Below, piece by piece: positions 13,591 through 63,151 of a stretch of 64,000 nucleotides of DNA; position 1 is the stretch's first letter; every line of letters begins with the position of its first letter. The notes under the pieces are model-generated. The model searched no databases and was not told the origin of the DNA. It saw only the letters and a program-made list of their open reading frames with translations. The position numbers and the translations under genes are program-made. The DNA is from Rhodococcus pyridinivorans (lineage in GTDB: Bacteria; Actinomycetota; Actinomycetes; Mycobacteriales; Mycobacteriaceae): positions 3,596,001 through 3,660,000 of the forward strand of contig NZ_FNRX01000002.1 in the NCBI RefSeq assembly GCF_900105195.1, written 5' to 3'.

Positions 13591-14522
13591 GCGACGTCGT
13601 CCTTCTCGAAGCGGCTGCGGCAACCCGGGCAGCAGAACCACATCGTCCGGCCCGCAACGACGAGGTGCGGGGTGGACTCGGTGATCGTGACGGTCATCCC
13701 GCACACCGGGTCGACGGCCGTCTGCGGCTTCGACTCCGTCTCCCTCGGCACCTCGACGCGTCGACAACTCTCCTCGGAGGGGCGGATGAGGCTGCCGCTG
13801 CGCGCGACTCGCACGATGTCGGCCACGATCGACAGACCGATCTCCGCGGGGGTGCGGGCACCGATATCGAGCCCGACCGGGGTGTGCACGTGGGCACGCT
13901 CGTCGTCGGTCGGATCCACCTCGTCGAGCACCGCGGCGCCACGGGTGTGACTGGCGACCAGACCGATATAGCGGCTTCCGGCGTCGAGCGCCGCGCGGAT
14001 CACACTCCCCTCGTCGCCTCCGTGACTCGCGACGATCACCACCGACGCCTCGGCAGGCACTCGCGTCCCGCGAATCCGTTCCACCGAGTAGTCGACGCGC
14101 CGCGCGAAGTCGCTCACGGCGTCGGCCACGGGCGAGTCCCCGAAGACGGCCACCACGAGCGCAGGCATCCGCGGCTCGAGAAAGATCTCGGTGGCCCCAC
14201 CGGACATGCACGGGTTGACCGCGATCGTCGCCCCCGGGGTGTCGGGGAACTCGGCGGCTCCGGCCGGCAGCACCCGTAGGAGCATGCTCTCCCCTCGCTC
14301 GAGCACCGTGCGGGACATTTCGCGCACCGAGTTCTCGGTGCACTGTCCGCCGACGAACCCCTCGATCGTGCCGTCGGCGTGGACGAGCGCCCGGTCGCCC
14401 GAGTGCGCGGACGTCGGCGGCTGTGCCCGTACGACGGTCGCTTCCACGAACGGGCGGCGTTCGCTGCGCAACTGTGCTGCCCGCACCGCAAGGTCCATGT
14501 CCTCGTACTCCGCTCGTTCCAC
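13587..14522 (-). CDS. XdhC/CoxI-type molybdenum-cofactor maturation protein with C-terminal YHS domain
   Basis: A 311-residue protein. Residues 1 to about 240 match the XdhC/CoxI family: an N-terminal domain containing FVGGQCTENSV, then a Rossmann-type region with VVIVASHGGDE and a typical PVGLDIGARTPAEIGLSI segment. Family members bind molybdenum cofactor and help insert the sulfur- or copper-modified form into hydroxylases. The last 45 or so residues form a YHS-type metal-binding tail (DPVCGM then FCCPGC) that standard XdhC proteins lack. The GTG start at 14522 is preceded by AGAAGGA. It sits between coxL and the MoxR gene, so its client is most likely CO dehydrogenase. Confidence 0.85.
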   Translation of the reverse strand: MERAEYEDMDLAVRAAQLRSERRPFVEATVVRAQPPTSAHSGDRALVHADGTIEGFVGGQCTENSVREMSRTVLERGESMLLRVLPAGAAEFPDTPGATIAVNPCMSGGATEIFLEPRMPALVVAVFGDSPVADAVSDFARRVDYSVERIRGTRVPAEASVVIVASHGGDEGSVIRAALDAGSRYIGLVASHTRGAAVLDEVDPTDDERAHVHTPVGLDIGARTPAEIGLSIVADIVRVARSGSLIRPSEESCRRVEVPRETESKPQTAVDPVCGMTVTITESTPHLVVAGRTMWFCCPGCRSRFEKDDVA

Positions 14523-14544
14523 TCGAATCCTTCTGTCGCGTCGC

Positions 14545-16938: not shown

Positions 16939-17423
16939 CACGACACCTCCGTGGGTTGCGCCTTCGAGGAGTGTTCGGCGGCCCACCGGACCGACCGGAC
17001 GATGGTGGTGTAGCCGGTGCAGCGGCAGATCTGCCCGGAGATCGCCTCGCGGATCGTCGCCTCGTCGGGGTCGGGATCGCGGTCGAGCAGGGACCGCGCG
17101 GTGATCATCATTCCCGGGGTGCAGAAGCCGCACTGCAGTCCGTGGCAGCGCACGAAGCCTTCCTGCACGGGGTCGAGGACACCGTCGCGTTCGAGTCCCT
17201 CGACGGTGAGCACCTCGTGGCCGGCGGCCATGACCGCCAGCGTGGTGCACGACTTCACCGGCTCGCCGTCCACGGCGACGACACACGTACCGCAGTTGCT
17301 CGTGTCGCAACCCCAGTGGGTTCCGGTCAGACCGAGGTGGTCGCGCAGGAAGTGCACGAGCAGCGTCCGGGGTTCGACGTCGGCGGTGACACTCTCGCCG
17401 TTGACCGTCATCGAGATCTGCAT
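16938..17423 (-). CDS. coxS: Aerobic carbon monoxide dehydrogenase small [2Fe-2S] subunit
   Basis: A 161-residue electron-transfer subunit with two [2Fe-2S] clusters. The plant-type cluster uses Cys39, Cys44, Cys47 and Cys59 (CDTSNCGTC, then SC). The second uses Cys98, Cys101, Cys133 and Cys135 (CGFC and CRC). Length and spacing are standard for CoxS/XdhA-type small subunits. It starts five bases after the coxM stop and overlaps coxL at its end, so all three subunits are translationally linked. Confidence 0.95.
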
Positions 17424-17427
17424 CGGT

Positions 17428-18312
17428 TCACACCCTTTCGGTGACGCCGAGACGTTCGGCGGATTGGCGCAGGGCCCGCACCGTCAACTCCGATGCGAGG
17501 TGACGCTTGTAGGCGGCGGTGCCGCGCTGATCGGTCTCGGGATCGCATGCCGACGCGGCCGCCGCTCCCGCCTCGCGGAAGAGTTCCTCCGAGGCCGGCG
17601 AGCCGCGCAACAGCTCGGACACCCTCGACAGCGCCGCCTCGTCGGCGCGCACCGCCGTCAGCCCGACACGCGCGTCGGTGATGCGTCCGTCGTCCGACAT
17701 CCACAGCGCGGCGCCCGCGGCGGCCACCGCCCAGTCGCCGGTGCGACGCTCGACCTTCTCGTACGCACTGGCCCCGGTGCCCTTCCTCGGCAGCCGCACC
17801 TCGACGAGCAGTTCGTTCGGGGCGACCGCCGTCTCGTAGGGGCCGAGATGGAAGTCGTGGAAATCGAGCTCGCGCACCCCGCCCGGTCCGCGTACGACAC
17901 AGGTCGCGCCGAGCACTGCACACACGGTGGACAGATCCTCGGCAGGATCTGCCTGACACAACGACCCACCGAGCGTTCCACGATTGCGGACGACAGGATC
18001 GGCGATCACGCGCTCGGCATCGCGGAAGATCGGGAAGATCTCGGCGAGTTCGTCGGATTCGAGAAGCCGGCGGTGCCGGACCAGGGCACCGAGGCGCACG
18101 GACCCGGGTTCGAACACGATGTGATCGAGTTCGTCCGCGAGATCGTTGATGTCGATCAAGTACTCCGGATTCGCGAGCCGAAGTTTCATCATCGGCAGCA
18201 GACTGTGCCCGCCGGCGACGACCCGGGCCCCCTCTCCGTGCCGGTCGAGCAACTCGACGGCGTGATCCACTCCGGTGGCACGCTCGTACTCGAATGGGCC
18301 AGGAACCTGCAT
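17428..18312 (-). CDS. coxM: Aerobic carbon monoxide dehydrogenase medium FAD subunit
   Basis: A 294-residue FAD-binding subunit. The two FAD motifs are [11 protein letters not shown] near residue 34 and [11 protein letters not shown] near residue 113, the standard CoxM arrangement. A C-terminal CO-dehydrogenase flavoprotein domain follows. It transfers electrons from the iron-sulfur subunit towards quinone. This is the first gene of the cox cluster. The 249 bases between its start and the divergent DedA gene must hold both promoters; I see no recognisable operator there. Confidence 0.93.
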
Positions 18313-19280: not shown

Positions 19281-19354
19281 GCCTCCGTAGCTCAGCTGGA
19301 TAGAGCAAGAGCCTTCTAATCTCTAGGTCGCAGGTTCGAGTCCTGCCGGGGGCA
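19281..19354 (+). tRNA. tRNA-Arg (anticodon TCT)
   Basis: A 74-nt cloverleaf: acceptor GCCTCCG pairs with CGGGGGC (one T-G pair), D arm with AGCTCAGCTGGATAGAGC, anticodon loop CTTCTAA giving TCT, and T arm with GGTTCGAGTCC. The discriminator base is A and CCA is not encoded. The 195 bases between this gene and gdhA hold no gene; they presumably carry the gdhA promoter. Confidence 0.95.
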
Positions 19355-19549
19355 CCTCGACCGCCGGCGGACCACCCGTCGCGGGGCCGCACATCATACC
19401 GGTGAACTGGGCATTTCGCCCGGCAGACAGGCCGTTCGGATCGTGTGTTTCTCATCCCACCTTGCCGCAGGGTTAACACATGCTAAGGGCCACGTCCTAT
19501 AGTTCTCGTCGTAAATCCCGTGTTACAGAATCCTCACAGAGTCAGGTAG

Positions 19550-20929
<1,380 letters not shown>

Positions 20930-21030: not shown

Positions 21031-22773
21031 CTAGCGGACGATCTGGCGGCGGTCGTCAGGGAGCCGGCGTGTGCGACCCGCCTTGTCGAGCCGGTCGAGC
21101 AACGGCAGGACCACCCGCCGTGTCGTTCCCAGGCGTTCGCGCGCGGCACTGGTCGTGAAGGGCTGGTCCAATTCGCCCAGCAGCTCCACGGCCGTGTCGG
21201 CGGCGTCGGGGAGCAGGACGATGCCCGGGCCCGCCCGCCACAACCGTCCGCTGCGTTCGGCCGCGCCGAGGGCCCGGTCGTCGAGGCCGAGCTCGCGTAG
21301 GCGATCGGCGGTCGGGGCCGCGAACGGGGCGGCCGACAGGTCGCGGCGCACCTGCTCGACGGCTTTGCGGATCTTCGGCGGTAGACCGTCGGCGCCGGGA
21401 GCGATCACCCGCCCCCCGACCACTTCGAGCGGAGGTCGCACCAGCGCCCGGACGAGGTCCGGTGTGGGAAGACGCAGCTGCGACGCCAGCACCGTCAACG
21501 GCGCCGCCGGATCCAGTGGATGGGTGCGGGCATGGGCCTGCACGAGTGTGGGCAGCCGGTCGGCGACGGTCTTCGCGAGACCGGGTGCGACGAGCCACGG
21601 CCCGACCGTCAGGTGCTCTCCCCGTGCGAGTGGGATGCCCAACTGTCGCAACCGTTGCCGGTGCAGGAGTCCGCGGCGGGCGAGTTCGTCGGCCAGGTGC
21701 GGCGTCCCGTCGGCCCCTGCCAGTTGCAGCGCGCGGCGTGCCGCCGCGCCGCGACGCCGGAATCGGGGTGGATCGGGGTCGAGAACGTCGGCTCGCCAGA
21801 TCATCCGGCGGCCCGGGTCGCGCAGCAACGCGCGGTCGCCGATCCGCAGGGGCAGCGGGCGGTCGAGGGTGAGCCGGACGAGATCGTCTGCCAGCGGACG
21901 GCACCGGACACCGACGTCCGCGGCTCCGATGTGCAGCACCGGAGCGACGGGCGGCCGGTCGTCGCCGCTGATCCGAACGTCGACGACGGTGGTGTGGTGC
22001 CACGCGCCGGGCGTGACGAGCACACTGCCCCGTCCCAGATCGTCGACCCGGCCGGTGAGATTGAGGGCGACCCTGGCCACGCCGCTCACCGCGCTCCGGT
22101 CGCGACCGAGTGCCTGCACGCTGCGGACCCGCAGCGGCGTGTCCCCCAGCACGAGGGTGTCCCCCACGCGCACCGTGCCCGCGGGAAGGGTTCCGGTGAC
22201 GACGGTTCCGGATCCACGCACGGTGAACCGGCGGTCCACCCAGAGCCGGACGTCGGCCTGCGGATCGGGGTCCGGAAGCGACGCGACCATCGTCGTCAGT
22301 GCGCTCCGGAGGTCGTCGAGGCCCATCCCGGTGCGCCCGCTCACGGCGACGACGGGCGCCCCCGCCAGACTCGTGCGGGCGACCTCCGCCGCGGCCCGCG
22401 CGGCCGCGGGTCCCGGATCGGCGAGATCGGCCCGGGTAACGGCGACGACCGCGTGGCGCACGCGGAGCGCGTCGAGTGCTGCGAGGTGTTCGGCCGCCTG
22501 CGGCATCCACGGATCGTCGGCGGCCACCACGAACAGCGCGGCCGGGACCGATCCCACTCCGGCGAGCATCGTCGTCAGGAATCGCTCGTGCCCGGGGACG
22601 TCGACGAAGGCGACCTCCCCCACCTCTGGCCAGGACGTCCAGCAGTAGCCGAGCTCGATGGTCAGTCCTCGTCGCCGTTCCTCGGCGAGCCGATCCGGGT
22701 TCGCACCGGTGAGCGCCTCGACCAGCGTCGACTTGCCGTGATCGACGTGACCGGCGGTCGCGACGACCTGCAT
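21031..22773 (-). CDS. selB: Selenocysteine-specific elongation factor SelB
   Basis: A 580-residue translation GTPase that carries selenocysteinyl-tRNA to UGA codons marked by a SECIS hairpin. G1 is GHVDHGKST at residues 8-16 and G3 is DVPGHERF; G4 reads TRAD where TKAD is more usual. EF-Tu-like domains 2 and 3 follow, and the C-terminal third contains winged-helix repeats, the SECIS RNA-binding part that ordinary EF-Tu lacks. The ATG overlaps the selA stop (ATGA). Its client UGA is in the formate dehydrogenase gene at 25955, less than 4 kb away on the other strand. Confidence 0.95.
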   Translation of the reverse strand: MQVVATAGHVDHGKSTLVEALTGANPDRLAEERRRGLTIELGYCWTSWPEVGEVAFVDVPGHERFLTTMLAGVGSVPAALFVVAADDPWMPQAAEHLAALDALRVRHAVVAVTRADLADPGPAAARAAAEVARTSLAGAPVVAVSGRTGMGLDDLRSALTTMVASLPDPDPQADVRLWVDRRFTVRGSGTVVTGTLPAGTVRVGDTLVLGDTPLRVRSVQALGRDRSAVSGVARVALNLTGRVDDLGRGSVLVTPGAWHHTTVVDVRISGDDRPPVAPVLHIGAADVGVRCRPLADDLVRLTLDRPLPLRIGDRALLRDPGRRMIWRADVLDPDPPRFRRRGAAARRALQLAGADGTPHLADELARRGLLHRQRLRQLGIPLARGEHLTVGPWLVAPGLAKTVADRLPTLVQAHARTHPLDPAAPLTVLASQLRLPTPDLVRALVRPPLEVVGGRVIAPGADGLPPKIRKAVEQVRRDLSAAPFAAPTADRLRELGLDDRALGAAERSGRLWRAGPGIVLLPDAADTAVELLGELDQPFTTSAARERLGTTRRVVLPLLDRLDKAGRTRRLPDDRRQIVR

Positions 22774-24077
22774 CAGGATCCTTCGCGAGCGGCCACGCGC
22801 GTCACGGCGTCGATCAGCTCGCCGTCCTCGGCGGGGTCGACCGCGAGCAGGTCGAGCAGCAACCGGCCGCGTTCGACGCGGCCGACGACGGGGTGCTCAC
22901 CGAGCCGCAACGGAAGTGCGAGATGTTCGGGCAGGGCGATCGCGACGCTCGGCAGGACGACGTCCGGGGCGCCACCGCCCCCGACGACGCCGTCGGAGTC
23001 GACCACCTCGGGTTGGCACTCCGAGGGCAGCGCCACGCAGATCGCCTGTGCGCGGGCGCGGAGATCTTCCGGGCGGGAGGCCAGCGCCGACGCCACGGGT
23101 GGCATCGGTCCCGTCAGGGTCGCTTCGAGAGCGGCCAGGGTGAGCTTGTCGACGCGCAGCGCCCGCGCGAACGGGTCGCGCCGCAGGCGTTCCACGAGTT
23201 CGGCCCGTCCGAGCAGCAGGCCGGCCTGCGGACCGCCGAGGAGCTTGTCGCCCGAGGCGGTCACCAGGTCGGCGCCGGCACGCAGCGCGGTGGTGGCGTC
23301 GGGTTCGTTCGACAGCCGCGGATGCGGCGCGAGCAGACCCGATCCGATGTCGACCACGACGGGCGGTCCGAGTCCGGAGAGTTCCCGGACCGACACCGAC
23401 GACGTGAAGCCGCTGACGGTGAAGTTCGAGGGATGCACCTTGAGGACGAAGGCGGTGTCGTCGTCGACGGCCGCGGCGTAGTCGCTCAGGCGCACGCGGT
23501 TGGTGGTGCCGACCTCACGCAGCGTCGCGCCCACGGATTCCAGCAGTTCCGGGATCCGGAAGCCGTCACCGATCTCGACCAGCTCGCCCCGTGCGATCAC
23601 GATCGAGCGACCACCGCGTGTGAGCACCCGGGTGACCAGGGCGAGAGCTGCGGCACCGTTGTTGACGACGTGGATGCCGCCGGCGTCGGGTACCTGTTCG
23701 GCGAGTGCTTCGAGGGCGCCGCGTCCTCGCCGTCCGCGCCGACCGGTGGCCAGGTCGAGTTCGACGTCGGTGGCGCCCGCCGCGGTGGACACCGCCTCGA
23801 CCGCCGCTCGGGACAGCGGGGCGCGACCGAGATTGGTGTGCACCACCACGCCGGTCGCGTTGACGACGCGGCGCAGGGTGGTCGCCTGCTGCGGCAGCGA
23901 CGCGACCGCGACGTCGGCGACGGCATCGGGCCCGATCTCGCCGTCGCGGCACCGTTGCTGGGCCGCGACGACGGTCTGCTTGACCAGTCGGGCGCCGAGC
24001 CGGTCGACGGCCTCGCGCAGGCGCGGATCGGCCAGGACCTGGTCGGTGCGGGGAACGTCCCGCCTCGGATCCGGCAC
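22773..24077 (-). CDS. selA: L-seryl-tRNA(Sec) selenium transferase SelA
   Basis: A 434-residue pyridoxal-phosphate enzyme that converts seryl-tRNA(Sec) to selenocysteinyl-tRNA(Sec) using selenophosphate. The PLP lysine lies in SGDKLLGGPQAGLL, and VVHTNLGRAPLS is a conserved N-terminal block. I place the start at the GTG at 24077, preceded by GAGGAG four bases upstream. A longer in-frame ORF reaching 24161 would run through the selenocysteine tRNA and is rejected. The 5' end lies only 32 bases after the 3' end of tRNA-Sec, so selC, selA and selB probably share one transcript. Confidence 0.95.
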   Translation of the reverse strand: MPDPRRDVPRTDQVLADPRLREAVDRLGARLVKQTVVAAQQRCRDGEIGPDAVADVAVASLPQQATTLRRVVNATGVVVHTNLGRAPLSRAAVEAVSTAAGATDVELDLATGRRGRRGRGALEALAEQVPDAGGIHVVNNGAAALALVTRVLTRGGRSIVIARGELVEIGDGFRIPELLESVGATLREVGTTNRVRLSDYAAAVDDDTAFVLKVHPSNFTVSGFTSSVSVRELSGLGPPVVVDIGSGLLAPHPRLSNEPDATTALRAGADLVTASGDKLLGGPQAGLLLGRAELVERLRRDPFARALRVDKLTLAALEATLTGPMPPVASALASRPEDLRARAQAICVALPSECQPEVVDSDGVVGGGGAPDVVLPSVAIALPEHLALPLRLGEHPVVGRVERGRLLLDLLAVDPAEDGELIDAVTRVAAREGS

Positions 24078-24109
24078 GCGCTCCTCATCCCACGGTCGGC
24101 GAAAACTTT

Positions 24110-24204
24110 TGGCGGAGGCGGACGGGAATCGAACCCGCCCAGCCCAGATACTGGGCCACAACGGTTTTGAAGACCGCGACCGTCACCAGACGAGAACCAC
24201 CTCC
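24110..24204 (-). tRNA. selC: Selenocysteine tRNA (anticodon TCA)
   Basis: A 95-nt minus-strand tRNA with the oversized features of tRNA-Sec: an eight-pair acceptor stem (GGAGGTGG with CCGCCTCC), the anticodon TCA in loop CTTCAAA, and a long variable arm GGCCCAGTATCTGGGC. The T arm has GGTTCGATTCCC, the discriminator base is G, and the CCA end is encoded at 24110-24112. It reads the UGA codon at 25955 with SelB. It lies directly upstream of selA. Confidence 0.96.
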
Positions 24205-24214
24205 GCGCTCACCC

Positions 24215-24238
24215 TAACCGAAGTCGGGCCCTCGGTTA
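24215..24238. promoter_or_regulatory. Inverted repeat in the selC/selD divergent promoter region
   Basis: TAACCGA and TCGGTTA form a perfect 7-base inverted repeat with a 10-base spacer in the short gap between tRNA-Sec and selD. Both transcripts must start in or near this gap, so it could bind a regulator of both. No specific protein can be named. Confidence 0.35.
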
Positions 24239-24262
24239 CGACTCGCCCGTATGTTTGGGTTC

Positions 24263-25285
24263 ATGACCGCACACGTCGACTTTCCCGAGGGCGCCATCCG
24301 ACTCACCCAGTACGCCGCCGGCGGCGGGTGCGCATGCAAGGTTCCGCCGGGTGAACTCGAGCGGGTGCTCGGCGGTCTGCAGGGTGGACGGGCCTCCGGC
24401 GAACTGTTGGTGGGTGTGGAGAACGGCGACGACGGAGCCGCGGTCCGGATCGATCCGGCGCCCGACGGGAGCGGCCGGGCCGTCATCGTGACGGCCGACT
24501 TCTTCACCCCGGTCGTCGACGACGCCTACGACTGGGGACGGATCGCCGCCACCAACGCCATGTCCGACGTCTACGCGATGGGTGGCACGCCGATCATCGC
24601 GGTCAACCTCCTGGGCTGGCCGCGCGAGCTCATCCCGTTCGAACTCGCCGCCGAAGTCATGCGCGGCGGCGCCGACGCGTGCGCCGAGGCGGGTGCCCAT
24701 CTCGCCGGCGGGCACAGCATCGACGACCGGGAGCCGAAGTACGGACTGGCGGTCACCGGTCTGGGCGATCCGGATCGCCTGCTGCGCAACGACGCTGCCA
24801 CGCCCGGCCTGCCGCTGACTCTCACCAAGCCGCTCGGTCTCGGCATCCTGAACAACCGCCACAAGGCCACCGGCGAGCGTTTCGAGGAAGCGGTCGCGGT
24901 GATGACGACACTCAACCGCGAGGCGGCACAACTTGCGCACGAGGCCGGTGTCCGCGCCGCCACCGACGTCACCGGTTTCGGTCTGCTCGGCCATCTGATG
25001 AAGATGATGCGGGCCAGCGGCACGACCGCCGTGATCGACTCCGCGGCCGTGCCGTACGTCGCGGGAGCGCGCGAGTCGCTCGCGGAGGGATTCGTGCCCG
25101 GCGGGAGCCGTCGCAATCTCGATTGGGTCCGCGAGCAGGTCGACTCCGAGGTGGACGACGACGAACTACTCCTGCTCGCCGACGCTCAGACGTCCGGCGG
25201 TCTCCTGGTCGTCGGGGAGCTCCCCGGCCATCCGGTCATCGGGGAGGTGGTCCCCGCGGGCGAACACGCGATCCGGGTGCGCTGA
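24263..25285 (+). CDS. selD: Selenophosphate synthetase SelD
   Basis: A 340-residue ATP-dependent enzyme making selenophosphate from selenide, the selenium donor for SelA. The N-terminal active-site loop reads GGGCACK: the catalytic position is a cysteine rather than selenocysteine, with the essential lysine three residues later. VTADFFTPVVDD and GGHSIDDREPKYGLAVTG are conserved SelD blocks. Another in-frame ATG lies at 24251; neither has a strong ribosome site, and I prefer 24263. It stands 102 bases upstream of the formate dehydrogenase gene on the same strand, making selD part of the enzyme's operon. Confidence 0.95.
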   Translation: MTAHVDFPEGAIRLTQYAAGGGCACKVPPGELERVLGGLQGGRASGELLVGVENGDDGAAVRIDPAPDGSGRAVIVTADFFTPVVDDAYDWGRIAATNAMSDVYAMGGTPIIAVNLLGWPRELIPFELAAEVMRGGADACAEAGAHLAGGHSIDDREPKYGLAVTGLGDPDRLLRNDAATPGLPLTLTKPLGLGILNNRHKATGERFEEAVAVMTTLNREAAQLAHEAGVRAATDVTGFGLLGHLMKMMRASGTTAVIDSAAVPYVAGARESLAEGFVPGGSRRNLDWVREQVDSEVDDDELLLLADAQTSGGLLVVGELPGHPVIGEVVPAGEHAIRVR

Positions 25286-25387
25286 CCCCGACGGACATGC
25301 CGACACACCTGCACGGGATCCGGATTAACCGGCACGAAGCGCGGGTAGACGGTAACTTCGGAACGAGAGCGCAGGAAAGGAGCACCG

Positions 25388-28300
25388 ATGGCGGAGAAAG
25401 ACACGTCCCTCCCCTGGCCCGTCCTGCGCCAGTTCCTCGGTAAGGACCTGCTCGGACGCGGCAAGGCCGCACGGTCCCGTCGTACCGAGGAGATCGAACC
25501 GCGCACCTCCACCGCCGATCGTGTCGCCCGCAGCGTGTGCCCCTACTGCGCTGTCGGATGCGGACAGAAGATCTTCGTCAAGGACGAAAAGGTCGTCCAG
25601 ATCGAAGGCGATTCCGACAGCCCCGTGAACCGCGGGCGCCTGTGCCCCAAGGGCTCGGCGAGCAAGAACCTCGTCACCAGCGAGCTGCGAGAGACCCGGG
25701 TCCGCTACCGCCGGCCCTACGGCACCGAATGGGAAGACCTCGATCTCGACACGGCCATGGAGATGGTCGTCGACCGCGTGCTGAAGACCCGCCGCGAGAC
25801 CTGGCAGGAATTCGACGACAAGGGCCACCGTGTCCGGCGCACGATGGGCATCGCCAGCCTCGGCGGTGCCACGCTGGACAACGAGGAGAACTACCTCATC
25901 AAGAAGCTGTTCACAGCGATGGGGGCGGTCCAGATCGAGAACCAGGCCCGCATATGACACTCCGCCACCGTCCCCGGTCTGGGGACCAGCTTCGGGCGCG
26001 GCGGCGCCACCGGCTACACAGCCGACCTGGCCAACGCTGACTGCATCATCATCCAGGGTTCCAACATGGCCGAAGCCCACCCGGTGGGCTTCCAGTGGGT
26101 CGTGGAGGCCCAGAAACGCGGTGCCCGCGTCATCCACATCGACCCGCGCTTCACCCGTACCAGCGCGGTGGCGGACAAGCACGTCCCGATCCGGGTCGGC
26201 AGCGACATCGCCTTCCTCGGCGGCATCGTCAACTACATCCTGAGCAACGAGCTGGACTTCCGCGAGTACGTCGTCAACTACACGAACGCCGCGGTGCTCG
26301 TCAGCGACAAGTTCGAGGACACCGACGATCTCGACGGGCTCTTCTCGGGCTTCGACCCCGAGAAGCGGACCTACGATCCGACGAGCTGGCAGTACGACGT
26401 GGAGGACGAATCCGGCGACCTGCACAAGTCGCAGGCCAACGGCTCCGACGAGCACGCCGGGCATCGGGACACGGCCGCGGGCCTGCAGAACGAGTCGCAC
26501 GGCATGCAGACGGCGAGCCACCCGAGGCGCGACGAGACCCTACAGCACCCGCGGTGCGTCTACCAGGTGCTCAAGCGGCACTTCGCCCGCTACACCCCCG
26601 AGGTGGTCGAGCAGGTGTGCGGCGTCTCGCAGGAGGACTTCCTCGACGTCTGCCGCGCGTGGACCGAGAACTCCGGTCGGGAGCGGACGACGGCGCTCGT
26701 CTACAGCGTGGGCTGGACCCAGCACAGTGTCGGTGTGCAGTACATCCGCACCGGCGCGATCCTGCAGCTGCTGCTCGGCAACATGGGCCGCCCCGGCGGA
26801 GGCATCATGGCGCTGCGCGGTCATGCCAGCATCCAGGGCTCGACCGACATCCCGACGTTGTTCAACCTGTTGCCCGGCTACCTGCCGATGCCCGACGCGA
26901 ACAAGCACCACTCGTTCACGGACTGGGTCGACAGCGTGCGCAACCCGGGCAGCAAGGGTTTCTGGTCGAAGGCCGACGCCTACGCGGTGAACCTGCTCAA
27001 GGCATACTGGGGCGACGCGGCGACCGCCGACAACGACTACTGCTTCGACTACATGCCGAAGATCACCGGCGACCACGGCACCTACCGTTCGGTGCTCGAC
27101 ATGATCGATGGAAAGGTCAAGGGCTACTTCCTCCTCGGGCAGAACCCGGCCGTCGGCTCCGCCCACGGGCGCGCGCAGAGGCTCGGGATGGCGAACCTCG
27201 ACTGGCTCGTGGTGCGCGACCTGTTCGAGATCGAGAGCGCCAACTTCTGGAAGGACTCCCCGGAGATCGAGACCGGTGAGATCGTGACCGAGGAGTGCGC
27301 CACCGAGGTGTTCCTCTTCCCGGCGGCCTCCTACGCCGAGAAGGAAGGCACCTTCACGCAGACCCAGCGGATGCTGCAGTGGCGGGAGAAGGCCGTCGAG
27401 CCGCCCGAGGACTGCCGCTCGGAACTGTGGTTCTTCTACCACCTCGGCCGCATGATGCGGGAGCGTCTGGCCGAGTCGACCGACGAGCGCGACCGTCCGC
27501 TGCTCGACCTGGCATGGGACTACCCCGTGCACGGCGAGTACGACGAGCCGAGTGCCGACGCAGTGCTCATGGAGATCAACGGCTACGACGTCGCGACCCG
27601 TCGGCCACTGTCGTCGTTCACCGAGATGAAGAACGACGGCTCCACCCTCGGTGGCTGCTGGATCTACACCGGGGTCTACGCCGACGGCGTCAACCAGGCC
27701 AACCGGCGTAAGTCCCGGCACGAGCAGTCGTTCGTGGCTCCCGAGTGGGGCTGGGCGTGGCCGATGAACCGCCGCATCCTGTACAACCGGGCATCCGCCG
27801 ACCCCGAGGGCAGGCCGTGGAGCGAACGCAAGGCCTACGTGTGGTGGGACGAGGACGCACAGCAGTGGACAGGTGCGGACGTGCCGGACTTCGAGAAGAC
27901 GAAGCCGCCGAGCTACCGCTCCCCCGACGGCGCCGACGGTGTCGAGGCGCTCGAAGGGATCGATCCGTTCATCATGCAGGGCGACGGCAAGGGTGCCCTC
28001 TACGCCCCCCAGGGGCTCGTCGACGGTCCGATGCCGACGCACTACGAACCGGTGGAGTCGCCGTTCCGCAATCCGCTCTACGCGCAGCAGGCCAACCCGA
28101 CGCGCATGGAGTACCGGCGTGACGACAATCCGATGAACCCCTCACCGCCGGAAGAACACAGCGACGTGTTCCCCTTCGTGTTCACGACGAGTCGTCTCAC
28201 CGAGCACCACACCGCCGGCGGCATGAGCCGCTATCTCGAACATCTCGCCGAACTGCAACCGGAGATGTTCGTGGAGGTCTCCCCCGCCCTGGCGGCCGAA

Positions 28301-28786
28301 CGCGGACTCGAGCACATGGGCTGGTGCCACGTCGTCACCGCCCGCTCTGCGATCGAGGGCCGGGTCCTGGTGACCGAGCGGTTGCGTCCGCTGAAGGTGG
28401 AGGGACGGACCGTCCACCAGGTGTGGATGCCCTATCACTGGGGCAGCGGCGGCATGGTGACCGGCGACTCGACCAACGATCTGTTCGGAATCACGTTGGA
28501 CCCCAACGTGCTCATCCAGGAGACCAAGGTCGGTACGTGCGACGTCCGGGCAGGACGCCGACCGTCCGGAGCGGCACTGCGAGAGTACGTCGAGGGATAT
28601 GCGCGGCGGGCCGGGGTAACCGATCACGTGTACCCACCCATCGTGACGGTCCCGGACGGCGATACAGCCTCGGACGACCCACGTGCCCCGGAGGCCTCGG
28701 ACGACCCACGTGCCCCGGAGGCCTCGGACGACCCACGTGCCCCGGAGGCCTCGGACGACCCACGTGCCCTGGAGGAGGACGAGTGA
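25388..28786 (+). CDS. fdhA: Selenocysteine-containing formate dehydrogenase, molybdopterin subunit
   Basis: A 1,132-residue selenoprotein. Translation starts at ATG 25388 behind AGGAAAGGAG. The in-frame TGA at 25955-25957 (codon 190) is read as selenocysteine: context NQARI-Sec-H, then TVPGLGTSFGRG, aligns with the Sec site of the E. coli FdnG type (NQARV-Sec-H), and the frame continues without a break to 28786. Cys51, Cys54, Cys58 and Cys86 bind a [4Fe-4S] cluster (CPYCAVGC, LCPKG). The subunit oxidises formate to CO2 at a Mo or W bis-pterin centre. No Tat twin-arginine signal is present, so it probably faces the cytoplasm. The acidic C-terminal tail is made of four copies of a nine-residue repeat. 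Gene callers treating TGA as stop would split it at 25957 and 26066. Confidence 0.96.
25955..25986 (+). promoter_or_regulatory. Bacterial SECIS element with Sec codon UGA
   Basis: The UGA (25955-25957) is followed after 12 bases by a perfect six-pair stem GTCCCC / GGGGAC (25970-25975 and 25981-25986) closed by loop GGTCT. In the E. coli fdhF SECIS the spacing is 11 bases and the loop contains the same GGUCU with the guanine and uracil contacted by SelB. The hairpin lies inside the coding sequence, as usual in bacteria. Confidence 0.93.
28667..28774 (+). repeat. 27-bp direct repeat, four copies, in the fdhA C-terminus
   Basis: Four consecutive 27-base units beginning GCCTCGGACGACCCACG, identical except for one late substitution in the last copy. 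They encode a nine-residue acidic repeat (ASDDPRAPE) forming the C-terminal tail of the formate dehydrogenase large subunit, just before the overlap with the next gene. Copy number is likely to vary between strains. Confidence 0.97.
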
Positions 28787-29694
28787 CGGGTCCCAACAGC
28801 TTCTTCGGACCGATCGACCCGGCACCCGATGCCGGGTACGAGGATCCGCCGGCTCGCAAGGGCTTCTTCACCGACACCAGTGTGTGCATCGGGTGCAAGG
28901 CCTGCGAGGTGGCCTGCAAGGAGTGGAACGACGTCCCCGAGAACGCCTTCGCGATGCTCGGCACCTCGTACGACAACAGTCATTCGCTCAACGCCAATCA
29001 GTGGCGGCACGTCGCCTTCATCGAGCGCCCTGCGGAGTCGAAACCGCCGGTCTCGCTGGGGATGCCGACCGTCGGCGCGACCCCGACGGAGCTTCCGGAG
29101 GAGGAGAAGCCGGACTTCCGCTGGTTGATGTCCTCGGACGTGTGCAAGCACTGCACCCACGCGGCGTGCCTCGACGTGTGCCCGACCGGGTCGCTGTTCC
29201 GCAGCGAGTTCGGCACGGTGGTCGTGCAGGACGACATCTGCAACGGCTGCGGATACTGCGTCGCTGCGTGCCCGTACGGCGTCATCGACCGTCGCAAGGG
29301 TCCAGAGGGCGACCCGAAGGTCGGTATCGCCCAGAAGTGCACGCTCTGTTACGACCGGCTCACCGACGGCCAGACCCCGTCCTGCGCGCAGGCGTGCCCC
29401 ACGGAGTCGATCCAGTACGGCGACGTCGAGGAACTGCGCGCTCGCGCCGAGGAACGACTGGCCGCCCTGCACGAGCGCGGCGTGAGCGAGGCACGACTCT
29501 ACGGCAACGATCCCGAGGACGGGGTCGGCGGGACCGGCGCCTTCTTCCTGCTCCTCGACGAACCGGAGGTCTACGGCCTGCCGCCGGATCCGGTGGTGAC
29601 GACCAAGGATCTGCCGGAGATGTGGACCCGCGCCGCAGTGGCAGCGGTCGCGATGCTGGCGGGCGCCGCCGCGTCGTTCCTGAGGAGGCGCTGA
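28783..29694 (+). CDS. fdhB: Formate dehydrogenase iron-sulfur subunit
   Basis: A 303-residue ferredoxin-type subunit. Four cysteine groups for [4Fe-4S] clusters are visible: CIGCKACEVAC, CKHCTHAACLDVC, CNGCGYCVAAC and CTLCYD with a later CAQAC. A hydrophobic C-terminal segment (VAAVAMLAGAAASFL) could anchor it in the membrane. It relays electrons from the selenocysteine subunit to the NrfD-type partner. It starts at a GTG overlapping the fdhA stop (GTGA) and overlaps the next gene by one base. Length and cluster pattern match the FdnH/FdoH type. Confidence 0.94.
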   Translation: MTGPNSFFGPIDPAPDAGYEDPPARKGFFTDTSVCIGCKACEVACKEWNDVPENAFAMLGTSYDNSHSLNANQWRHVAFIERPAESKPPVSLGMPTVGATPTELPEEEKPDFRWLMSSDVCKHCTHAACLDVCPTGSLFRSEFGTVVVQDDICNGCGYCVAACPYGVIDRRKGPEGDPKVGIAQKCTLCYDRLTDGQTPSCAQACPTESIQYGDVEELRARAEERLAALHERGVSEARLYGNDPEDGVGGTGAFFLLLDEPEVYGLPPDPVVTTKDLPEMWTRAAVAAVAMLAGAAASFLRRR

Positions 29695-30713
29695 TGACCC
29701 AGGTGCAGCACGGCGGCAGCCCGGGCAACCCCCGCCGGTCCGGAGGTGGTCGCGGCGGCGACCGGGTGATGGTGCCGGAGGCCGACTTCGAGTCCTATTA
29801 CGGACGCCAGATCGTGAAGCCGGCCCCGTGGGAACACGACATCGCGATCTATCTGTTCACCGGCGGCGTGGCCGCGGGCAGCTCGCTGCTCGCCGCGGGT
29901 GCCGATCTCACGGGGCGGCCCGCCCTGCGTCGCGTCGCCCGATTCGGTTCGCTCACATCGCTGCTCGTCAGTGTCGGTGCGCTGGTTCACGATCTCGGCA
30001 AACCGAGCCGCTTCCTCAACATGCTGCGAGTCGCCAAACCGACCTCCCCGATGTCGGTCGGTACGTGGATCCTGTCGCTGCACGGTCCGTTCGCGGGCGT
30101 CGCGGCGGCCGCGGAGATCGCCGCGATGCTCCCCGCTCGGTGGAAGCGCGGGCCGGTGCGCCTGCTGCTCGCCCTGGGCCGGCCCGCCGGGATCGTGGGT
30201 GCACTGACGGCACCGCCGGTCGCCGCCTATACCGGAGTCCTGTTGTCCGACACCGCAACCCCAGCCTGGCACTCCGCCTTCAAGGAAATCCCCTTCGTGT
30301 TCTGTGGGTCGGCAGCGGCCGCATCGGGTGGTCTCGGACTGCTGGGTGCGCCGGTCGCCGAGGCCGGGCCGGCACGCGCCTTCGCCGTCGGCGGTGCGCT
30401 CGTCGAACTCGCGACCGAGCAGCAGATGGAGAAGTCGATGGGCCTTTCGGCCGAGACGCTCCACCAGGGCCGCCCCGGGCGACTGATGAGGGCCAGCAAG
30501 GCATTGACGGTGGCCGGCGCGCTCGGCGCACTCGCCGGCCGCCGCAATCGCGTGGTATCGGCAGTGTCCGGTGCCGCTCTCATGGCCGGTTCGCTGTGCA
30601 CGCGACTCGGCGTCTACGAGGCCGGCATCGCGTCGGCGAAGGATCCCAAGTACACCGTCGTTCCCCAGCGTGAACGAGTCGATCGCGGGGAACCCGTTCG
30701 TTACCGCAGCTGA
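29694..30713 (+). CDS. NrfD/PsrC-type membrane subunit of formate dehydrogenase
   Basis: A 339-residue polytopic membrane protein of the NrfD (polysulfide reductase membrane subunit) family. A hydrophilic N-terminus including FESYYGRQIVKPAPWEHDI is followed by about eight hydrophobic segments, with HDLGKPSRFLNMLR being a family hallmark. NrfD-type subunits exchange electrons with quinone and carry no haem, unlike the FdnI cytochrome b subunit of enterobacterial enzymes. It overlaps fdhB by one base (TGATG). It completes a three-subunit quinone-linked formate dehydrogenase. Confidence 0.9.
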   Translation: MTQVQHGGSPGNPRRSGGGRGGDRVMVPEADFESYYGRQIVKPAPWEHDIAIYLFTGGVAAGSSLLAAGADLTGRPALRRVARFGSLTSLLVSVGALVHDLGKPSRFLNMLRVAKPTSPMSVGTWILSLHGPFAGVAAAAEIAAMLPARWKRGPVRLLLALGRPAGIVGALTAPPVAAYTGVLLSDTATPAWHSAFKEIPFVFCGSAAAASGGLGLLGAPVAEAGPARAFAVGGALVELATEQQMEKSMGLSAETLHQGRPGRLMRASKALTVAGALGALAGRRNRVVSAVSGAALMAGSLCTRLGVYEAGIASAKDPKYTVVPQRERVDRGEPVRYRS

Positions 30714-30746
30714 GATCCGGCTCGCGGGCAGGACGAAGGAGAACGC

Positions 30747-32051
30747 ATGGACTCCGGCAAGCCTACGCGCGAACCACACGGCGACGCCGCGACGGCTCAG
30801 CCTCCGGGCAGCTTCCGCTGGCTCCTCGTGGCCGGGGGTCTGTTGCTGCAGTTCTCGATCGGCGCGGTCTACGCGTGGTCGGTCTTCGGCGGAGCCCTCG
30901 AGAGCGCCGACTCCTGGCAACTGAGCACGGTCCGGGCCTCACTGCCGTTCACCGTGACCATCGGCATGATCTTCATCGGCACCTATCTCGGTGGCCGACT
31001 GCAGGATCTGAAAGGTCCCCGAGTCGTCGCGTTGATCGGCGGCATCATCTATGCGCTCGGCATCCTCCTCGCCTCCTTCACCGACGGAGCCGAGGACTAC
31101 TGGCTGCTCATCCTCGGGTACGGCATCATCAGCGGTTTCGGGCTGGGCTTCGCGTACATCGTCCCGATCGCCATGCTGCAGAAGTGGTTCCCCGACAAGA
31201 CCGGTCTCATCACCGGACTCGCTGTGGGCGGTTTCGGGTTCGGCGCCGTGCTCACCTCGCCGGTCGCGCAGTGGCTCATCGACCGGAATCCGGACGACCC
31301 CACGAGCGCCTTCCTGCCTTTGGGTATCGCCTACCTCGTGATGTCGCTGGCCGGTGCGGCACTCTTCCGCAACCCGCCCGAGGGGTACACCGTGCCGGGC
31401 TTCGACCCCGTCGGCCGCGACGGCAGCGGAGCGGACCGCGGCAAGGAGTACACCCAGAACGAGGCCCTCCGCACGCCCCAGTGGTACCTCCTGACCGCCA
31501 TCCTCACCCTGTGCGTGACCGCCGGCATCTCCCTGATCTCGCAGGCGAAGCCGAGTGCGTCCGACATCGCCGGTTTCAGCACCTCCGGCGCGGCGGCACT
31601 CGTGGGCGTGCTCGCGATCTTCAACGGCGCCGGCCGGATCGTGTGGGCGGCGATCTCCGACCATATCGGCCGGATGAAGACCTTCACCGCACTGCTCGTG
31701 CTGCAGGGCGTGTGCCTGATCGTGCTGCCGCATGCCACCGGCGTGGTGCTGTTCTCGGTCCTGGCCGCGATCATCTATCTCTGCTACGGCGGCGCATTCG
31801 GCACCATGCCCGCCACCGCCGGCGACTTCTTCGGGGTCCGCAACGCCGGCGCCATCTACGGCCTGATGCTCATCGGGTGGAGCATCGGCGGCATCATCGG
31901 CCCGATCATCGCGTCTACGCTCCTCGGCGACGACAAGGCCTATACCCTCGCCTACACCACCATCGGCATCATCGCGCTCGTATCGGTCGTGCTCACGATG
32001 ATCACGAAGGTACCCGCGGCACGCCGGGAGTCGGCCTCGGCCCGGTCCTGA
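30747..32051 (+). CDS. OFA-family MFS transporter (oxalate/formate antiporter type)
   Basis: A 434-residue major facilitator protein with twelve predicted membrane helices. The first helix block GAVYAWSVFGGAL and the loop GTYLGGRLQDLKGPR are typical of the oxalate:formate antiporter (OFA) family; the second half repeats the MFS pattern (WAAISDHIGRMKTF). It begins 33 bases after the NrfD gene on the same strand, with GACGAAGGAG upstream of the ATG, so it is probably part of the formate operon and may import formate or exchange it. The actual substrate cannot be read from sequence. Confidence 0.85.
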   Translation: MDSGKPTREPHGDAATAQPPGSFRWLLVAGGLLLQFSIGAVYAWSVFGGALESADSWQLSTVRASLPFTVTIGMIFIGTYLGGRLQDLKGPRVVALIGGIIYALGILLASFTDGAEDYWLLILGYGIISGFGLGFAYIVPIAMLQKWFPDKTGLITGLAVGGFGFGAVLTSPVAQWLIDRNPDDPTSAFLPLGIAYLVMSLAGAALFRNPPEGYTVPGFDPVGRDGSGADRGKEYTQNEALRTPQWYLLTAILTLCVTAGISLISQAKPSASDIAGFSTSGAAALVGVLAIFNGAGRIVWAAISDHIGRMKTFTALLVLQGVCLIVLPHATGVVLFSVLAAIIYLCYGGAFGTMPATAGDFFGVRNAGAIYGLMLIGWSIGGIIGPIIASTLLGDDKAYTLAYTTIGIIALVSVVLTMITKVPAARRESASARS

Positions 32052-32073: not shown

Positions 32074-32505
32074 TCACACTCGGGGCGCTTCGTGGGTGTG
32101 CAACCACGAGACGACCTGCGTGCGGGAGTGCACGCCGAGTGTGTCGAGGATCCGTTCCAGGGCACCGTTCGCCGCGTCGACTGCAGAGCCGAGGCGCCCG
32201 AGATGGAAATGGGCGAGCCCCGAGAGCCACAGCGCAGAGGCCTTGTTCCACCGCTCGCCGTGCTGGCCCGCCATCTCGACGACACGAGCACACGCCTTCA
32301 GGGCGTCGTCGCGTCGTCCGTCGTAGGTCTGCGCCATCGCCAGCTGGAACAGCCAGGTCAGCTGGGCGGCGTGGTGGCCGTGCGCACGATGCACCCGGGC
32401 CGCACGGAGGTAGAGGCCGATCGCCTCGGCCGTCGCCCCGCAGAACAGTGCGTGCAGAGCGCTCCAGTGCGCGACGAGGTGGCCGGGTCCGTCACCCCGC
32501 ACCAC
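32074..32505 (-). pseudogene. Remnant of a LuxR-family ATPase regulator (LAL type)
   Basis: The 143-residue frame begins inside a TPR-like helical region (AHWSALHALF, LFQLAMAQTYDGRRDDALKAC, ASALWLSGLAHFHLGR) and then passes abruptly to DTLGVHSRTQVVSWLH, which is the very end of a LuxR-type helix-turn-helix domain. Full-length relatives have hundreds of residues of ATPase and TPR sequence plus a complete HTH. Here the front is missing, the reading frame merging into the 3' end of the neighbouring small gene, and the middle of the HTH is deleted. It is best read as a decayed regulator. What it once controlled is unknown. Confidence 0.7.
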
Positions 32506-32552: not shown

Positions 32553-32795
32553 CTACTCCGCGGGAGGGGCCGAGCGACGATCCGACGTCGCCGGCCCTTC
32601 TCCGCGTTCCTCGTCGTCGCGCGCCGCGCGGGCGGCCTCGCGCATCTCGATCGCGTCGGTGATCAACTCACCGATCTCGCGGGTGACGTCGCGGACTGCT
32701 CCGGTGATGATCCCCGCGATCGCGCCGACGTGGGTGGCCGCCGACTCGGTGACCTCCTGGATCGTGTCCTTGTTACGCTCGAATCTTCCCACCAT
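32553..32795 (-). CDS. Small hypothetical protein downstream of the desaturase
   Basis: An 80-residue protein with one mildly hydrophobic central segment (ATHVGAIAGIITGAV) and a charged, acidic C-terminus. I do not recognise a named family. The start is the ATG at 32795, within the last 23 bases of the desaturase gene, so the two are translationally coupled and probably serve the same membrane process. A longer in-frame start at 32837 is less likely because it deepens the overlap. Confidence 0.6.
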   Translation of the reverse strand: MVGRFERNKDTIQEVTESAATHVGAIAGIITGAVRDVTREIGELITDAIEMREAARAARDDEERGEGPATSDRRSAPPAE

Positions 32796-34029
32796 GTTCG
32801 ACCCCCTCGATCGTGTCGTCCGCGAGGGTACCCGCATCGTCGAGCGGGCGATCGGTGGAGCGGTGACGTTCGATGATCACCCGCGACTCGGGTTCGGGCG
32901 CGAACCAGCCGGGAGGGAGAGCAAGCGTGAAGATCTTCTTCCACACCGACGTCACCTGGGCGGTGAAGCCACCGGTGTTGTACGGAAGTCCGTGCTTCTC
33001 GCACAGTTCCCTGACCTTCGGCGCGAGCTCCGGATAGCGGTGCGCCGGCAGGTCGGGGAACAGGTGGTGCTCGATCTGGTGCGACAGGTTGCCCGACATG
33101 ATGTGGAACAACGGCGACCCGGTGATGTTCGCGCTGCCCAGCATCTGCCGGACGTACCACTCACCACGGGTCTCCTCGGCGGTCTCCTCCTCCGTGAAGG
33201 ACTGCACGCCGGACGGGAAGTGGCCGCAGAAGATGATCGAGTACGCCCACACGTTGCGCACCAGATTGGCGGTCGCGTTGCCGAGCAGCGTCGGGAAGAA
33301 CATCGGTCCGCTCAGCAGCGGGAAGGCGATGTAGTCCTTGATCACCTGACGGCGCGCCTTGCGCCACCAGCCTTTCGCGATCGGGATCACGTCGCGCCAC
33401 GAGCGTTTCCCGGCGACGATCCGGTCGACCTCCGCGTCGTGCATCATCACGCCCCACTCGAACAGCAGCATGAGGGCGGTCGCGTAGACCGGGTTGCCGA
33501 GATAGTAGGGATGCCACTTCTGGGCCGGGTCCATGCGCAGGATCCCGTATCCTATGTCGCGGTCCTGACCGAGGATGTTGGTGTAGGTGTGGTGCACGTA
33601 GTTGTGCGAGTGCCGCCACTGGTCCGACGGGCACACCGTGTCCCATTCGAAGACACGGGAATTCAGCGACGGCTCGCGCATCCAGTCGTATTGACCGTGC
33701 ATGACGTTGTGCCCGATCTCCATGTTGTCGAGGATCTTCGACACGCTCAGCGCCGCGACACCGGCGACCCATGCGGGCGGGAGGAATCCGACGAAGAGCA
33801 GACCGCGACCGGCGATCTCGAATCCGCGCTGCGCCCTGATGATCCGGTAGAGATACTCACGGTCCTCGTCACCGAGGGATGCGAGCGTCTGCTCCCGCAG
33901 TGCGTCGAGTTCGCGGCCGATCTCCTCGACACTGTCGTGGTCGAGGACGAGCGGTTCGTTCCCGACCGAAGAGCTGCGGCCGGACAGGAAGGGCAGGAAG
34001 GGAACGGTGGGTAGGGACAATCCGAACAT
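32773..34029 (-). CDS. Membrane fatty-acyl-CoA desaturase, DesA3-like
   Basis: A 418-residue di-iron membrane desaturase. Three histidine boxes are visible: HNVMHG, HSHNYVHH and QIEHH(LFP), the fatty acid desaturase type 1 pattern, with hydrophobic segments between them. In mycobacteria the homologous DesA3 makes oleoyl-CoA from stearoyl-CoA with electrons from the adjacent reductase (the Rv3229c-Rv3230c pair). Here the reductase is the next gene upstream, 42 bases away on the same strand. ATG 34029 is chosen; an alternative lies four codons upstream. Expression probably answers to the FabR/DesT-like protein encoded divergently at 35345. Confidence 0.92.
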   Translation of the reverse strand: MFGLSLPTVPFLPFLSGRSSSVGNEPLVLDHDSVEEIGRELDALREQTLASLGDEDREYLYRIIRAQRGFEIAGRGLLFVGFLPPAWVAGVAALSVSKILDNMEIGHNVMHGQYDWMREPSLNSRVFEWDTVCPSDQWRHSHNYVHHTYTNILGQDRDIGYGILRMDPAQKWHPYYLGNPVYATALMLLFEWGVMMHDAEVDRIVAGKRSWRDVIPIAKGWWRKARRQVIKDYIAFPLLSGPMFFPTLLGNATANLVRNVWAYSIIFCGHFPSGVQSFTEEETAEETRGEWYVRQMLGSANITGSPLFHIMSGNLSHQIEHHLFPDLPAHRYPELAPKVRELCEKHGLPYNTGGFTAQVTSVWKKIFTLALPPGWFAPEPESRVIIERHRSTDRPLDDAGTLADDTIEGVEHGGKIRA

Positions 34030-34071
34030 GATGTCCTCCAATGATTTCGGTGGTGTCGCCGGACGGCCGGT

Positions 34072-62905: not shown

Positions 62906-62978
<73 letters not shown>

Positions 62979-62983
62979 CAACA

Positions 62984-63018
62984 CGAAGGCCGGACACCCA
63001 GTGTCCGGCCTTCGTTCT
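62984..63018 (+). terminator. Terminator of tRNA-Lys copy 1
   Basis: Stem CGAAGGCCGGACAC with its complement around loop CCA, then TTCT. It begins five bases after the tRNA. Confidence 0.85.
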
Positions 63019-63073
63019 GGCGGTGACACCGTCCTCCGCGTCGCCCGGCGACGACCGGGAGACACATCGCCAC

Positions 63074-63146
<73 letters not shown>

Positions 63147-63151
63147 CAACA

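Follow-up and report, generated by a model that had tools for sequence, protein, structure and literature searches.

A selenocysteine-dependent formate dehydrogenase block in Rhodococcus pyridinivorans, very probably transferred horizontally from the Nocardioides lineage

Gene content of the block and the recoded codon of fdhA

The genome of Rhodococcus pyridinivorans (GCF_900105195.1; 5.26 Mb in three contigs, labelled G000 here) was analysed over a stretch of 64,000 nucleotides, positions 3596001–3660000 of contig C2 (NZ_FNRX01000002.1), referred to below as the window. At window positions 21031–32051 two divergent gene groups are separated by a 46-bp gap. The group on the minus strand reads tRNA-Sec–selA–selB, and that on the plus strand selD–fdhA–fdhB–nrfD followed by a major facilitator superfamily (MFS) transporter gene. 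Together they hold the genes for selenocysteine (Sec) insertion and for a formate dehydrogenase (FDH) with an in-frame UGA codon, as follows.

21031..22773, minus strand: selB, selenocysteine-specific elongation factor, 580 aa (TIGR00475, 264 bits, cut-off 242; PF09107 SelB winged helix)
22773..24077, minus strand: selA, L-seryl-tRNA(Sec) selenium transferase (TIGR00474, 405 bits, cut-off 268; proposed GTG start)
24110..24204, minus strand: tRNA-Sec (selC), anticodon UCA (ARAGORN; Rfam RF01852, 74.6 bits, E 1.8e-13 at 24114–24204)
24251..25285, plus strand: selD, selenophosphate synthetase, Cys form with GGGCACK (TIGR00476, 384 bits, cut-off 125)
25388..28786, plus strand: fdhA, formate dehydrogenase catalytic subunit with a selenocysteine codon (NF041513, 1959.8 bits, cut-off 1400)
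25955..25957, plus strand: UGA selenocysteine codon, residue 190, in frame in fdhA
25970..25986, plus strand: bacterial selenocysteine insertion sequence (SECIS) hairpin GUCCCC-GGUCU-GGGGAC, beginning 12 nt past the UGA (pair covariation)
28783..29694, plus strand: fdhB, 4Fe-4S electron transfer subunit (Fer4 domains; TIGR01582 FDH-beta, 179 bits, under the cut-off of 335; proposed GTG start)
29694..30713, plus strand: nrfD-type membrane subunit, quinone side (PF03916, 72 bits, cut-off 26)
30747..32051, plus strand: MFS monocarboxylate transporter of the wider OFA/SfMCT kind (NF049980, 422 bits, cut-off 320)

The original prediction, made from the sequence alone, had placed selA, selB, tRNA-Sec and selD around a UGA-containing FDH with its Fe-S and NrfD subunits within 11 kb; all of these lie where it put them, and the sel genes and the FDH score above their cut-offs. 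SelA, SelB, SelD and tRNA-Sec thus occur beside an in-frame UGA with a SECIS just downstream, the gene set expected of a Sec-decoding trait. FdhA passes the curated cut-off of the actinobacterial formate dehydrogenase model NF041513. Its closest named relative is the R. gordoniae protein (96% identity), and its solved relatives include FDHs named as selenocysteine-containing (6sdr, 8cm4 and 9qm0). FdhB displays several 4Fe-4S domains and, by eye, a C-terminal hydrophobic stretch, and NrfD is a member of a membrane-protein family by its domain match. The catalytic, Fe-S and membrane subunits share one operon, a gene content that would suit a membrane formate:quinone oxidoreductase. The coordinates of selB and selA overlap by 1 nt, those of fdhA and fdhB by 4 nt and those of fdhB and nrfD by 1 nt, overlaps that fit coupled translation, the GTG starts of selA and fdhB being proposals. 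A promoter scan, limited to the sigma-70 type, gave no match. The C-terminus of FdhA has an ASDDPRAPE repeat encoded by four 27-nt tandem copies (window 28667–28774), near-perfect although the last is slightly altered, which lie just ahead of the overlapping fdhB start.

In the predicted pathway SelD would provide selenophosphate, SelA would convert Ser-tRNA(Sec) to Sec-tRNA(Sec), and SelB would bind the SECIS right after codon 190 of fdhA and insert Sec at the UGA. FdhA would hold the molybdenum cofactor and Sec, FdhB would relay the electrons and NrfD would pass them to the quinone pool. No twin-arginine signal was seen by eye at the FdhA N-terminus, and thus the active site probably faces the cytoplasm. 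The enzyme would probably remove formate and feed respiratory electrons. FdhD is required for this class of FDH. Three FdhD genes are present in the genome, all outside the window, and no molybdopterin synthesis gene occurs among the genes of the block; the description of the module as self-contained is therefore not upheld.

Similarly, the naming of the transporter as an OFA transporter needs correction. Its best curated model is the L-lactate MFS transporter NF049980, whereas both oxalate/formate models remain under their cut-offs (TIGR00890, 228 against 375 bits; TIGR04259, oxalate/formate antiporter, 148 against 335 bits). Thus formate is a possible, though unproven, substrate.

The UGA of fdhA falls within ENQARI-U-HSATVPGLGTSFG, and 942 codons follow it before the frame closes. 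A genome scan confirmed 208 loci with relatives of the FDH, the best 80 of which were retained for comparison. With the gene itself included, 81 of 81 loci carry a stop codon at the Sec position (75 UGA, six UAG, none Cys), and because the stop sits at this exact position throughout, the in-frame UGA is not a chance occurrence. The SECIS is likewise constrained. Its six pairs form in all 54 distinct sequences around the loop GGUCU, which presumably resembles that of the E. coli fdhF SECIS. At one pair the combinations U-A, C-G, U-G, G-U and G-C are all found, and another is C-G apart from a single G-C. Only 35 of the 54 sequences form a seventh pair, outside these six. Over the seven pairs 359 of 378 cells are paired, a value that none of 2000 column shuffles matched, while slid partners gave 123–250.

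The six UAG codons at the Sec position belong to L085, L087, L088, L092, L093 and L098, which are four Blastococcus, one Modestobacter and one Frankiales bin (RYN_115). ARAGORN found no tRNA-Sec in the fetched stretches of these six loci. The use of UAG for Sec in Geodermatophilaceae is among the findings previously described in PMC5330540.

Distribution, phylogeny and insertion sites

Three samples were compared, with 18 genomes of the genus, 401 of the family (evenly drawn) and 396 of the phylum; genus genomes carry G-labels (e.g. G004) and fetched loci L-labels (e.g. L085). SelA scores above its cut-off in 108 of the 401 family genomes and in nine of the 18 genus genomes, in line with the expectation that Sec decoding is patchy in actinobacteria. 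Within the genus, SelA and a close FDH (E below 1e-100 plus an in-frame TGA) are jointly present in the same nine genomes and jointly absent from the other nine, one of which, G009, is only 75% complete. All four Sec genes lie in the fetched stretch at 45 of the best 80 of 208 loci (31 of the 53 with nearly full flanks). These 45 loci fall into eight gene orders, that of the window being seen nine times with the transporter and four times without it. Thus, clustering is common in actinobacteria and its order is fluid. The selB match of L075, from Mycobacterium helveticum, comes in two separated pieces (residues 1–284 and 425–579), unlike most neighbours listed.

The six proteins of the block that have a mycobacterial counterpart are closer to those of Nocardioides (n=10) than to those of mycobacteria (n=18–20). 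The identities, Nocardioides first, are 62–79 against 47–54% for selB, 72–81 against 64–68% for selA, 76–88 against 67–72% for selD, 78–84 against 66–70% for fdhA, 72–86 against 60–68% for fdhB and 68–80 against 55–59% for nrfD. In contrast, RpoB displays the reverse relation, with 73% identity to five Nocardioides and 89–90% to three mycobacteria. Quick single-gene trees of selA, selB, selD, fdhB, nrfD and the transporter (the last with 16 rows only, Rhodococcus being represented by six rows of site 1, defined below) recover one Rhodococcus clade and one joint Rhodococcus and Nocardioides clade in six of six cases and a Nocardioides-only clade in none. Support is 77–100 for the joint clade, lowest for nrfD, and 96–100 for the Rhodococcus clade. 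In the concatenated tree (33 rows, LG+G4 without mixture, fdhA included; four long branches were flagged, all outgroup rows) the nine Rhodococcus modules form a clade with 100/100 support nested within Nocardioides, and the approximately unbiased test rejects a Nocardioides-only clade (p 4e-17). The gene trees are thus concordant with each other and in conflict with the host marker RpoB, the pattern that marks a horizontally transferred block. In eight of ten Nocardioides-group loci the transporter comes after nrfD, and among the best 80 of 208 loci 11 have it; the mycobacterial stretches compared hold no counterpart.

In the window the block is bordered by two genes that define an insertion site, termed site 1.

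19550..20899, plus strand: left border, NADP-glutamate dehydrogenase, a conserved host gene (NF006929, 772 bits; all 18 genus genomes have a close copy)
32773..34041, minus strand: right border, fatty-acid desaturase-like gene, named by weak similarity alone; it adjoins the glutamate dehydrogenase gene where the site is empty

Site 1 is occupied by the module in six of the 18 genus genomes and empty in ten. The exceptions are G007, with about 5.6 kb of other DNA, and G006, whose contig ends too early to tell; the glutamate dehydrogenase of G009 is in two pieces. In G015 the block alone separates the two host genes, and the leftover gaps total 340 bp, compared with 310–385 bp in five empty genomes. 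Site 2 is shared, with its flanks, by G004 and G014, and site 3 is found in G011; the modules of these three genomes have no transporter in the fetched stretch. The comparison of synteny that the original prediction had proposed thus reveals three chromosomal sites within one genus. On a host tree built from five genes flanking one site, four presence/absence changes are needed, three of them forced by well-supported branches. The ratio of module to host divergence, computed without G003 because its host data are partial, is 0.38–0.50 in 17 cross-site pairs and 0.52–0.91 in 11 same-site pairs. Together with the presence/absence pattern on the host tree, these ratios fit a single entry and later spread within Rhodococcus.

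Between the module and the desaturase-like gene lies a short open frame containing TPR repeats (window 32074–32505, minus strand). Its relatives occupy the same place in G003, G005, G008 and G013 and in G007, which has no module, and the frame resembles a remnant left at a variable position.

Relatives of the block are also carried by plasmids. FdhA has 148 matching records in the plasmid collection at E<1e-50; three reach at least 60% identity, one of them an 11.8-Mb record. The other two, the Arthrobacter plasmid pYA7-1a (NZ_CP110115.1) and the Tsukamurella plasmid NZ_LR134459.1, hold fdhABC, selD, tRNA-Sec, selA and selB together. The gene set is that of the window, although reordered and without an annotated transporter beside nrfD. 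pYA7-1a is typed conjugative, and a Tn3 transposase directly adjoins its selB. At the DNA level no plasmid record covers 80% of the window block, the best covering 27%.

Alternative explanations and known systems

The 11-kb block is very probably a horizontally transferred Sec-FDH cassette that came from the Nocardioides lineage, most likely in one entry, and then spread to at least three Rhodococcus sites. The block would have entered together with its transporter and then moved between Rhodococcus lineages, probably on conjugative plasmids and then by recombination. The earlier suggestion that the whole module can move as one unit agrees with the nested trees, the discordance with RpoB, the three sites, the emptiness of site 1 in ten genomes and the complete modules borne by plasmids.

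Several observations weigh against this interpretation. The GC content of the block is ordinary (69.6 against 67.5%), so that foreign composition gives no evidence, and the five flanking genes of the host tree are a narrow yardstick for module divergence. Fold energy alone does not pick out the SECIS (z 0.28 at 46 nt; another fold wins at 56 nt). The Tsukamurella plasmid is typed non-mobilizable, and both plasmid modules differ in gene order and have FdhA only 62–63% identical; they show that such blocks ride plasmids but do not reveal the vehicle here. No recombinase occurs among the module's own genes, the surroundings of the sites not having been scanned systematically. Terminal repeats, sought in six genomes as exact matches of at least 10 nt within 300 bp of both ends, were not convincing, with one 10-nt direct repeat in three genomes (in one also an 11-nt inverted match) and nothing in the other three. 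The lack of a recombinase in its genes and of a convincing terminal repeat led to rejection of the block as a self-mobile element, either transposon or integrative. In addition, the tRNA-Arg at 19281–19356 found no support as an attachment site, since the repeat families listed include no copy of its end near the right border. The 20 repeat families listed, of at least 60, are chance-like for GC-rich coding DNA except for the 27-nt repeats at the end of fdhA.

The alternative that survives best, although unlikely, is that Nocardioides-like donors supplied each of the three Rhodococcus sites separately. The three insertion sites are indeed unrelated and the copies at sites 2 and 3 lack the transporter in the fetched stretch, yet separate donors sit poorly with the monophyly of Rhodococcus, supported at 100/100 by the nine concatenated rows and at 96–100 in the six quick trees. 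It is improbable that Rhodococcus was instead the donor to several Nocardioides, or that both received the module from a third lineage missing from the sample. The case for either lies in the sampling, with only ten Nocardioides-group loci and the best 80 of 208 loci retained. In contrast, the topology speaks for Nocardioides as the source: Nocardioides is paraphyletic around a single Rhodococcus clade, and within the joint clade two Nocardioidaceae rows split off before the remaining seventeen. That the module is an old possession of Actinobacteria, inherited vertically, lost many times and never transferred, is very improbable. The Sec-FDH is widespread in the phylum, as the 208 loci with relatives attest, and among copies at one site the module diverges along with its host, as seen in the same-site ratios; however, the Rhodococcus modules are placed inside Nocardioides with full support although RpoB is much nearer to mycobacteria, and one genus holds the module at three different sites. 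Finally, an ordinary UGA stop in a broken fdhA relic is extremely improbable: all 81 loci share the stop position and keep both halves of the gene conserved, the SECIS pairs covary and the adjoining Sec machinery is intact.

Transfer of a Sec-FDH cassette is a kind of event that has already been described, and at this locus the donor lineage and the insertion sites are documented with unusual completeness. Zhang et al. 2006 (PMC1794560) describe transferred selA-selB-selC-fdhA clusters in Pseudomonadales and in Alpha- and Betaproteobacteria, and argue that transfer needs clustered selABC and a co-transferred selenoprotein gene, most often fdhA. The Sec genes adjoin fdhA in those clusters as they do here, although in another phylum; the present block also includes selD and a transporter, and its sites are resolved in one genus. 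Peng et al. 2016 (PMC5029168) report transfers of the Sec trait between actinobacterial suborders; most of the donors and recipients have selD near fdhA, their only selenoprotein gene. The pairs given there lead from Microlunatus or Nakamurella to Arthrobacter, and Rhodococcus and Nocardioides are unnamed in the main text. In the account of Actinomycetospora chiangmaiensis (PMC7176365) formate accumulated without selenite and almost none with selenite. The FDH1 cluster of that species encodes a membrane-type Sec-FDH with selA and selB, as here; it differs in that the species has three Sec-FDHs, and in that the account tabulates selD without a cluster and, so far as it concerns FDH1, makes no mobility claim. 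Similarly, Corynebacterium aurimucosum, as reported in PMC2830990, has selABD and selC clustered with a UGA-containing FDH, with a Cys-type FDH in addition. In Rhodococcus the donor lineage, the empty site, the occupied sites and the plasmid counterparts are all visible, so that the rule of Zhang et al. 2006 can be tested on one 11-kb block. The block also shows how a single step could give aerobic actinobacteria a selenium-dependent oxidation of formate, with selD and the transporter included.

A second selD and the uses of selenophosphate

It had been suggested that this FDH may be the sole reason for which the cell keeps the Sec trait, with additional selenoproteins or a second sel locus as evidence to the contrary. 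The matching presence of SelA and FDH across all 18 genus genomes agrees with the suggestion, but a second selD lies elsewhere in the genome and the sole-client claim is not established. No second SelA above the cut-off was found in the genome; copies of selB and tRNA-Sec were sought inside the window only. Five other molybdopterin oxidoreductase genes are present in the genome, none with an internal stop. A SECIS model trained on FDH SECIS elements (R1) found fdhA as its sole strong match in the genome (E 1e-10; next 0.15), and none of five weak matches combines a UGA with a GGUCU-like loop under the filter applied. R1 was also applied to a control of 15 selD loci, chosen from 30 fetched because their row listed a TGA. 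In all 15 a TGA stands where Sec is expected, and R1 matched the coding strand of none of them. The genome-wide negative thus carries little weight, and the genome may hold other selenoproteins.

The additional selD is located as follows.

G000:C2:913712-914785, about 2.7 Mb from the window on the same contig: second selD (371 bits, cut-off 125), in an operon at L176:6837-11706, minus strand

The second SelD (SelD2) is full-length and 47% identical to the first. Its operon, of a plasmid type and unrelated to the block, encodes a TetR protein, an acyl-CoA dehydrogenase, SelD2, a cytidylyltransferase/NMNAT-like protein and a phosphoglycerate-mutase/PhpG-like protein, beside a nitrilase-like gene, and no selA, selB or tRNA-Sec was seen in it. 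The cell thus probably employs selenophosphate, or an analogue, for some further purpose, and the presence of selD need not mean a Sec trait in these genomes. The gene is 94–99% identical on five Rhodococcus plasmids, two of which were opened, and the operon of G008 has the same coordinates as in the R. rhodochrous plasmid record NZ_CP027558.1. At E<1e-90 SelD2 occurs in two of the 401 family genomes, G000 and G008, and its best other actinobacterial relative in the phylum sample is 55% identical. SelD2 was rejected as a member of NF038049 (SelD_rel_HyperS), being a full SelD by its 371 bits and NF038049 not being among its matches. In 29 more distant actinobacterial SelD loci no cytidylyltransferase or mutase-like gene lies in the fetched flank; one of them, L206, has a piece of an acyl-CoA dehydrogenase (30% identical). 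The neighbours that Peng et al. 2016 (PMC5029168) name for orphan SelD, in their treatment of such genes, are other ones.

A related arrangement is found on haloarchaeal plasmids, those of Halobaculum. In six of six opened, an acyl-CoA dehydrogenase (41% identity in the one compared), a mutase-like protein and a cytidylyltransferase stand beside a diverged SelD-like protein. The latter matches SelD faintly, and the best of the six reaches 126 bits with NF038049, under the cut-off of 250; hhalign of the two alignments gave a probability of 43%. Against this link, relatives of the cytidylyltransferase on a Halorussus plasmid and on R. opacus pKNR are annotated without these neighbours.

The second selD is a more novel lead than the cassette, and its operon possibly represents an undescribed selenium or sulfur pathway. 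A more specific proposal, drawn by analogy with the reactions of PhpF and PhpG and doubtful as it stands, is that the cell might run two separate selenophosphate economies, both mobile, that of the Sec-FDH cassette and that of the SelD2 operon. In the latter, a nucleotidyl-activated form of selenophosphate would be transferred to a small carbon acid, yielding an undescribed selenium metabolite.

Two further features of the window lie apart from these genes. A few kb upstream of the FDH block, at 13587–18312 on the minus strand, the translations show by eye molybdenum hydroxylase genes of the CO/xanthine dehydrogenase type (large, FAD and 2Fe-2S subunits) with an XdhC-like gene. In addition, two tRNA-Lys(CTT) genes with identical Rfam scores are located at 62906–63147, 168 bp from start to start.

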